DNA from: Selenomonas ruminantium AC2024
GTDB lineage: Bacteria > Bacillota > Negativicutes > Selenomonadales > Selenomonadaceae
NCBI RefSeq assembly: GCF_000687995.1
Contig: NZ_JIAC01000001.1
Location: 2,418,001-2,482,000 of the forward strand
DNA length: 64,000 bases
Direction: 5' to 3'
The notes beneath the pieces are model-generated. The model searched no databases, was not told the DNA's origin, and saw only the letters and a program-made list of their open reading frames with translations. The position numbers were made by a program, and so were the translations under genes. Shown here one piece after another: positions 47,863 through 49,480 of the stretch. Position 1 is the first letter of the stretch. Every line of letters begins with the position of its first letter.

Positions 47863-48007
47863 AAATCCACACATCCCTTTTAAGCATAAGAAAACTCTTC
47901 TGCTGTAAAGCACGCAGAAGAGCGTCTTTCGTTGACGTCTATGTGTAGTATTATAATCGACTCTTGTTAAGTTGTAAATAAACGCGGCAAAAAATTCCCT
48001 TCTACAT

Positions 48008-48021
48008 AAATGTATACATTT
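48008..48021. promoter_or_regulatory. Perfect palindrome AAATGTATACATTT, possible operator
   Basis: It lies in the 160-bp gap between two divergent genes, 59 bp before the pseudo-ATPase start codon. TGTATACA also occurs before the carboxyltransferase gene (8657-8664) and before dnaG (44389-44396). GntR-type repressors favour such symmetric sites; the binding protein is unknown. Confidence 0.4.
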
Positions 48022-48079
48022 AACAGGAAAAACTTTTTCGGATGACGAATATCCTAATTAAGAAAACGAGGAGATGCCT

Positions 48080-49300
48080 ATGAAGAAAAATTTTAGCAAT
48101 CTTTATTTATTCCTTCCAACGGTCGCCCTCGCGGGTGGTATCGGTTATTACTGGCACACGACAGGCCTTGAGGACACGCTCGTGCTCAACGCAGCCGCGG
48201 CGGTTTTCATTGCCGCCCTGCCCTTGCCCTACATGCTGGGAAAAATTCTGCCCTATGCCCGCGGTGCCCGGCAGGCGAAAAAGCAGGACATCGAGCTTGC
48301 CAGCGACAGCCAGCTGCAGGAAATCAGCAACATTGATACTCTGATTTTGGCCCGCCATGGAGTTGTCACCGAAGGCCATCCCTATGTGGCCAACCTTTTT
48401 CCAGCAGGAGTCAGCCAAAACGCCCTGCTTTCCCTGGCCGCTTCGGCAGAAAAACAGGCCAACCATCCTTTGGGCAAAGCCATCTACGAAACCGCCAGCC
48501 AACGCGGTCTGCAGTTATTGGAGGCCAGCACCTTCACGGAAATTCCCGGCTGCGGCGTGGAAGCCATCGTGGGGCGCAACTCCCTGCGAGTGGGCAGCCT
48601 TGCCTGGCTCAAACGGGAAGGCATTGACATCAGCGCCGAGCTCGTCACCAAAAATGACCAACTGACCCAAAGAGGTCACAGTACCGTCTTCGTGGCCAAC
48701 GGCAAATACTGCCGCGGCATCATCGCCATTGATGATGCCCTGTCCGAAGATACCTTAAAGGCCATTCGCAAATTACAGCGGCAAAAAATCCAGACCGTGA
48801 TGCTGACCCGCGAGAACAAACGCACAGCTGCCGCCATTGGCAAGGAAGCCGGTATGAGCGCGGCTCACGGCCAGCTGACCACCGAAGGCAAGCTGCGGGA
48901 AATTCAACTGTTAAAGGCTAGAGGCACCGGTACAGCCATTGTGGACCGGGAAAAGGTCGATGACTCTCTGGCCAGTGCCGTAGATGCCGTCATCGAGCTG
49001 GCTCCGGTGAAGAACGAAAAGGATCCGCAGCCTGACCAACCGCTTCAGCGGCATAATCCCCATGCCATCTTCCTAAAAAGCGGCCTTCTCTGGGATTTTG
49101 CCGCCCTGCAGGAAATCGGCCAGCAGACCATCGCCCGCATCAAGCTCAACATCGCGATTTCTCTGGTCACCTTCGCGCTGGTGCTCCCGCTCGCCGCCGG
49201 AGCCCTCTATCCCTTCGGCCTCCCCTTCCTCCCCGCCTGGGGCGCATTGGCAGGCCAAGGACTGGCCCTGATACTGGTGACCGTCAACTCCCTACGCTGA
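48080..49300 (+). CDS. Catalytically dead, truncated P1B-type (CopA-like) ATPase relative
   Basis: A 406-residue membrane protein homologous to the second half of copper ATPases, with every key motif replaced. The ion-site CPC becomes LPLP (residues 47-50). The phosphorylation motif DKTGT becomes ARHGV (91-95, with TEG kept). MLTGDN becomes MLTREN (241-246). GDGINDAP becomes VDREKVDD (288-295). The nucleotide-domain HP (NHPLGKAI, 128-135) and GCGVEA are retained. The metal-binding domain, the first membrane helices and the actuator (TGE) domain are absent. The C-terminal helix pair (LPLAAGALYPFGLPFLPAWG) still resembles CopA. It cannot pump; a regulatory, scaffold or nucleotide-sensing role is inference. 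The ATG at 48080 is 6 nt from AGGAG. Confidence 0.8.
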   Translation: MKKNFSNLYLFLPTVALAGGIGYYWHTTGLEDTLVLNAAAAVFIAALPLPYMLGKILPYARGARQAKKQDIELASDSQLQEISNIDTLILARHGVVTEGHPYVANLFPAGVSQNALLSLAASAEKQANHPLGKAIYETASQRGLQLLEASTFTEIPGCGVEAIVGRNSLRVGSLAWLKREGIDISAELVTKNDQLTQRGHSTVFVANGKYCRGIIAIDDALSEDTLKAIRKLQRQKIQTVMLTRENKRTAAAIGKEAGMSAAHGQLTTEGKLREIQLLKARGTGTAIVDREKVDDSLASAVDAVIELAPVKNEKDPQPDQPLQRHNPHAIFLKSGLLWDFAALQEIGQQTIARIKLNIAISLVTFALVLPLAAGALYPFGLPFLPAWGALAGQGLALILVTVNSLR

Positions 49301-49379
49301 TTGACAAGTCAAATTTGACATGTCAACTCCCCTTGGAATCAACATATAGCAGCTTTTAGAACTATTGCTAATGAAAACA

Positions 49380-49480
49380 GCCCGGTGGCTGATGATTACT
49401 TTCCGTAGCGTTTGACAAGCCTGTCTAAGCGAAGGAAAGCAATTATCAGCCACCGGGCGTCTTACTGCCACGATGTAAAC
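49380..49480 (-). repeat. 3'-end hairpin element, copy C
   Basis: Minus strand: GTTTACATCGTGGCAGTAAGAC, a stem (49380-49458, GCCCGGTGGCTGAT / ATCAGCCACCGGGC), then TGTTTTCATT. The apex reads TTCGCTTAGACAGGCTTGTC plus AAACGCTAC. It starts at the base after the stop codon of the P-loop/Asp23 gene. Confidence 0.88.

Follow-up and report, generated by a model that had tools for sequence, protein, structure and literature searches.

Sequence and Domain Content

A gene on the forward strand at 48080..49300 of the window, the 64,000-nucleotide stretch of Selenomonas ruminantium AC2024 DNA analyzed in this study, encodes a relative of the copper pump CopA that has lost its pump parts, yet the gene remains intact and under selection in many genera, and the protein has probably taken on a different role in the membrane that involves no pumping. 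Descent of this dead gene from an active CopA of the same family is well supported.

The most likely start is the ATG at 48080 (MKK...), which is also the start of most orthologues, and the whole frame is open, giving a protein of 406 aa; an alternative start at 48074 would give 408 aa, and residue numbers below follow the 408-aa numbering. The ribosome-binding site GAGGAG (48068..48073, + strand) lies 6 nt before the ATG, and GAGG-like stretches precede the start in most of the 13 upstream regions compared, in agreement with the first-pass annotation, which had described an intact frame of 406 codons with a good ribosome-binding site. Scanning the + strand of the window 5′ of the gene with a consensus gave no sigma-70-like promoter. 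A perfect 16-base palindrome, TAAATGTATACATTTA, lies 5′ of the gene at 48007–48022 and is a possible operator. An operator common to the 13 upstream regions was sought and rejected, the perfect palindrome being limited to the window and a 97%-identical relative (L034). Directly 3′ of the stop codon are tandem TTGAC..GTCAA-type repeats (49301–49326), and farther on, ahead of the convergent neighbor, comes an inverted repeat (49378–49458; CAGCCCGGTGGCTGAT at 49378–49393 and ATCAGCCACCGGGC at 49445–49458) that is perhaps a terminator.

The top NCBIfam match of the 406-aa protein is the heavy-metal P-type ATPase TIGR01525 (E 2.5e-44, under the family cut-off), PF00702 is found above its cut-off, and the CopA structure 3rfu aligned to residues 13–408 (E 1.1e-34) in a PDB sequence search. 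The resemblance to the second half of copper P1B-ATPases, initially seen by eye, is thereby borne out, with the protein consisting of the equivalents of M3–M4, the P and N domains, and M5–M6. The actuator domain is indeed missing, as had been claimed: a profile search gave no match to PF00122 in the 406-aa protein, and in the same genome PF00122 matched only the three other P1B-like pumps, one of which is a normal CopA of full length (859 aa between stops, 855 aa from the ATG). The AlphaFold model of the protein is moderate (pLDDT 70, pTM 0.54), with some weak stretches within the P and N domains; the PDB structures closest to it are those of CopA, 4bbj and 3rfu.

Alignment to CopA confirmed the reported replacement of CPC, DKTGT, TGDN and GDGIND. 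All features lie on the + strand. Two membrane helices corresponding to M3–M4 (48092..48283; model helices 7–29 and 34–70) carry LPLP in place of CPC (48218–48229, residues 49–52), after which ARHGV replaces DKTGT (48350..48364, residues 93–97), with loss of the phosphorylation Asp. The N (nucleotide) domain (48389..48709) retains E126, H131-P132, G159xG161, G174 and W178. The second part of the P domain (48710..49009) retains K273 and has TREN for TGDN (48806–48817, residues 245–248) and a VDREKVDD stretch for GDGIND (48941–48964, residues 290–297). A variable linker (49010..49063), in many pairs the least constrained stretch by dN/dS, leads to two membrane helices corresponding to M5–M6 (49091..49294; model helices 340–375 and 388–407), where the Tyr-Asn and Met-Ser copper ligands are lost.

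Compared with CopA (P1B-1, Cu(I)-exporting; 3rfu and 4bbj), the window protein is therefore alike in the sequence and predicted fold of M3–M4, P/N and M5–M6, but has no actuator or HMA domain. It has none of the features of an active P-type ATPase (the DKTGT Asp, the actuator TGE, and TGD with GDGxND) and none of the P1B-1 copper ligands (CPC, Tyr-Asn and Met-Ser), whereas the P1B N-domain pocket residues E, H, GxG and G are all present. The residues required for transport and phosphorylation by P-type ATPases are well established, and with the loss of these essential residues both activities are excluded.

Distribution and Motif Conservation

A pump-dead relative was found in 143 of the 189 genomes of the window's family (best match of at least 270 bits, with six active-CopA genomes removed, tallied by hand from the search output), and 40 of the 189 have no such gene above the threshold. 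In a wider search of 150 genomes, including that of the window, 40 gave a match at E ≤ 1e-60; two of these matches, in G030 and G058, are full-length, were rejected as members of the dead family because they are ordinary active CopAs, and stand outside the dead counts. Class-wide (300 genomes, completeness of at least 85), what was matched beyond the family at E ≤ 1e-75 consisted entirely of open frames of 743–850 aa, in 11 genomes, at a threshold that would miss more divergent dead copies and with matches counted by length rather than by active site. The closest named relatives (S. ruminantium SIG242, 97% identity) place the window's genome in Selenomonas. Within the genus, the short dead form is present in 20 of 22 genomes, the G014 copy being interrupted by an in-frame stop; the two genomes lacking the gene are 86% and 83% complete. 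It is therefore not the case that this copy alone is degenerate, an outcome that the first-pass annotation had named as fatal to its own reading; active full-length counterparts do exist, but in other genera.

The active site was read in 145 copies, comprising the 143 and the partial copies of G245 and G247 (both below 270 bits), after twelve loci had been dropped as duplicates and seven rows as active. The phosphorylated Asp is present in 1/145 dead copies, against 25/25 active pumps. The M4 Cys ligands are retained in 11/145 and 9/145 copies, the M5 ligands in 1/140 (Tyr) and 2/140 (Asn), and the M6 ligands in 8/140 (Met) and 4/139 (Ser). The TGD Asp persists in 30/144 copies, the first Asp of GDGxND in 29/144 and the second in 122/144, and the P-domain Lys in 123/144. 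One member of the dead clade, L093:4329-6284, retains the Asp (DRSGTVT) and has neither TGE nor GDGxND.

The N domain presents another picture. The Glu corresponding to E126 is found in 136/145 copies, the first and second Gly of GxG (G159 and G161) in 112/145 and 145/145, the VG Gly (G174) in 144/145, and the Trp (W178) in 143/145; E163 is a near-invariant position, like G161, G174 and W178. Survival of the HP and GCG motifs, claimed from the sequence of the window alone, is correct for that protein (residues 131–132 and 159–161), but across the family HP is less conserved than this implied: the His is present in 114/145 copies and the Pro is down to 80/145.

Selection Versus Decay

Whole-gene dN/dS was 0.045–0.145 over 14 pairs of orthologues (Nei-Gojobori), which indicates purifying selection, and the N domain, at 0.013–0.082 over the same number of pairs, is among the parts of the protein with the lowest dN/dS. 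This was the comparison by which the first-pass annotation had proposed to tell a conserved pseudo-ATPase from simple decay, and the former is strongly supported, as purifying selection far below a dN/dS of 1 and the same motif losses are found across many genera.

That the gene is instead a slowly decaying pseudogene is very improbable. The loss of domains is graded, in-frame stops lie inside the match in 3 of the 143 genomes (G014, G049 and G079), and evolution is quicker than in the surroundings, with a dN/dS of 0.112 for this gene between the window and its nearest relative and 0.011–0.087 for seven neighbor genes. The gene is thus constrained, though evolving faster than all seven neighbors. 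Decay is, however, contradicted by the dN/dS values of all 14 pairs, by the 140/143 matches free of in-frame stops, and by the near-invariance of G161, E163, G174 and W178.

Descent From an Active CopA

In several genera the dead gene lies between a divergent ispE and cydA-cydB-cydDC, with GntR, glmU and prs beyond ispE. In g24 (L091 and L092; two genomes) and g16 (L097; one genome), it is csoR and an active full-length copA that adjoin ispE, the latter with an HMA domain, TGES, CPC and DKTGT. At the g24 locus a copZ-like gene and cydABDC come after csoR-copA, whilst in g16 cydA is 9.9 kb off; g23 (L100, at a contig end) also has csoR-copA, with ispE absent from the 5.4 kb examined. Intermediate forms were found as well. 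Three g6 genomes carry beside ispE a full-length dead form that has an actuator domain (PF00122, 96–112 bits) but substitutions at TGES and the Asp, and in two of the three a copZ-like gene stands behind it. Copies of 538–721 aa with a longer N-terminus occur in g7, g12, g14, g19, g20 and g30; four of the five scanned match only the tail of PF00122, at 17–21 bits (below the cut-off), and one (g20) gave no match. In the short form, as in the window, this longer N-terminal part has gone too.

Phylogenetic analysis agrees with descent from CopA, the dead copies grouping with four active CopAs at a support of 99–100. A tree of 72 rows has the dead copies as a single clade (SH-aLRT 99) that is joined by the active CopAs L097, L100, L050 and L051, from three genera (support 99), and 19 long CopAs stand apart from this group (97). 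The g24 CopAs, which have the fullest csoR-copA-copZ-cyd locus, fall outside the group and near the root in a position without support, whereas the g10 CopAs fall within it but have their genes at another place in the genome, with no CsoR match in G030. Two further trees were made with the motifs masked and with L060 (a duplicate), L099 and L126 (long branches) removed, one of them also without the two Cd/Zn pumps. Without these pumps, the dead copies and the same four CopAs were again united (support 100), and a single clade of dead and long CopA was rejected (p-AU 0.008). The four classes on the masked tree (active; dead with actuator, 3 rows; longer N-terminus, 7 rows; and short) need three changes, which is the minimum. 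With the Cd/Zn outgroup and masking, the dead rows are not one clade and need two changes, the Cd/Zn pumps joining L093 and L094, so a single origin of the dead rows is likely rather than certain.

These loci suggest an ancestral state in which a csoR-linked copA would have stood beside ispE, near cydABDC, in ancestors of the family, with the dead gene inherited vertically from it. Once a second, longer CopA had assumed copper export, the old pump would first have lost its phosphorylated Asp and its Cu ligands, and later the actuator and HMA domains.

Co-occurrence With a Longer CopA

A second, longer CopA was matched at E ≤ 1e-90 in 134 of the 143 genomes with the dead gene (the labels for the two kinds of CopA used here differ from the CopA1/CopA2 types of the literature). 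Eighteen of these long CopAs were examined, and are 838–907 aa stop to stop, with DKTGT and CPCA in all, a C-terminal HMA domain by eye, exact TGES in 13/18 and GDGINDAP in 15/18. An active CopA of the other kind occurs in six genomes (G030, G058, G036, G043, G044 and G067), none of which shows a second CopA, their next matches being at most 37% identical. In the window's genome the long CopA is immediately preceded by a CsoR gene. Among 15 sampled carriers, that genome included, csoR adjoins the long CopA in six (G000, G015, G024, G037, G054 and G068) and is absent or not adjoining in six (G027, G029, G047, G050, G052 and G077), these being the 12 in which its placement was read, with G034, G039 and G064 giving no placement; csoR was beside the dead gene in none of the 15. 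Taken together, the presence of the long CopA in 134/143 genomes, the placement of csoR and the exclusivity in 6/6 genomes suggest that copper export passed to the second CopA and that the old pump was left without its regulator. The six sampled carriers in which csoR does not adjoin the long CopA or is absent speak against this.

The same co-occurrence may be read as a partnership, in which the dead protein would pair with the surviving long CopA and modulate copper export as an inactive paralogue. The long CopA accompanies nearly all carriers (134/143), and the dead gene derives from the other kind of CopA, the active form of which turned up exclusively in genomes lacking the long CopA (6/6). 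The long CopA, however, is also found without the dead gene, for example in g21, g8 and g11, and simple replacement predicts co-occurrence too. A role with the long CopA, argued from co-occurrence, is possible, but a modulating partnership of this kind appears unlikely.

The Cytochrome bd Neighborhood

The gene next downstream of the dead gene, on the same strand, is cydA in 37 of the 143 genomes, across eight genus labels. In one of the 37 counted, G089, the two are separated by a 136-aa ORF that opens with a signal-peptide-like stretch (L066:7914-8321). The counts of cydA and of adjacency were made by hand (33 genomes without cydA, of which 20 were named and 13 obtained by subtraction). Cytochrome bd contains no copper. 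A dedicated assembly or regulatory factor for cytochrome bd (cydABDC), in a position analogous to that of the CcoI pump of cbb3 oxidase biogenesis, would be one way to account for the adjacency. Against this, 18 of the 143 carriers have no cydA match, including the near-complete G015, G027, G034 and G055 and all nine g7 carriers, and cydA is present in 27 of the 40 genomes that lack the dead gene. In the window's genome cydA is ~1 Mb distant. The dead gene also persists in G015 (L054), where the genes that in other genomes flank cydABDC stand together with the dead CopA, with no cyd gene between them, an apparent loss at the locus. The same neighborhood exists, moreover, with an active csoR-copA, so the linkage may be historical. 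A strict partnership with cydA was rejected on these co-occurrence counts; the linkage with cytochrome bd is frequent but not obligatory, and a dedicated bd factor is a doubtful explanation.

CcoI is described as a CopA2-type active Cu pump for the cbb3 oxidase (PMC8475189). The dead protein is like CcoI in being a P1B-type protein associated with a terminal oxidase, and unlike it in that CcoI is an active pump serving a copper oxidase, whereas here the pump residues are gone and the linked oxidase is cytochrome bd.

Possible Function and Significance

Pseudoenzymes are a familiar category among kinases and certain other enzymes, and the dead CopA is like them generally in having lost catalytic residues whilst ligand-pocket residues are retained and selection is maintained. 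Because constraint on the N domain ranks among the strongest in the protein, the favored reading is a pseudoenzyme that is anchored in the membrane, would bind a nucleotide and would act on a partner; this reading has a chance approaching even. Counting against it are the patchier HP motif, the moderate structural model, evolution faster than in the neighboring genes, the 40 of 189 family genomes without the gene, the Asp kept in L093 and the lack of a sigma-70-like site upstream. Nucleotide sensing, as suggested in the first-pass annotation, is compatible with the glycines kept in the N domain and with the low dN/dS of that domain. A tentative hand alignment puts W178 at the position of W1153 in human ATP7B. 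In reported work on ATP7B (PMC3203118), G1099, G1101, G1149 and N1150 are close to ATP, W1153 contacts the ribose, and the H1069Q substitution alters ATP affinity little.

Under the pseudoenzyme reading, the product would be a four-helix membrane protein whose cytoplasmic P and N domains probably fold as before and probably continue to bind a nucleotide. Nucleotide-dependent closing of N on P would then shift the helices and regulate a partner membrane protein, which could be, for instance, the surviving CopA or, where the gene precedes cydA, cytochrome bd or CydDC. A broader and more tentative version is that the whole family turned a replaced copper pump, stepwise, into a transport-dead membrane nucleotide sensor coupling energy state to a partner complex, with the intermediates surviving in sister genera.

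A full-text literature search, which covered few subscription papers and is therefore weak evidence, found no conserved family of dead, actuator-less P-type ATPases, and such a family goes unmentioned in the accessible portion of a review (PMC10654040). A search for literature joining copper genes with Selenomonas or cyd returned no title on the topic, PMC5649020 having csoR and copA only among its references. New here are the ispE-cydABDC setting, the csoR-copA counterpart beside ispE, and the intermediates, first full-length and dead and then with the actuator gone. Short homologues of this type could be misannotated as copper exporters, and the graded forms between active copA and the four-helix remnant amount to a natural experiment on the uses to which a P-type pump may be put after pumping.
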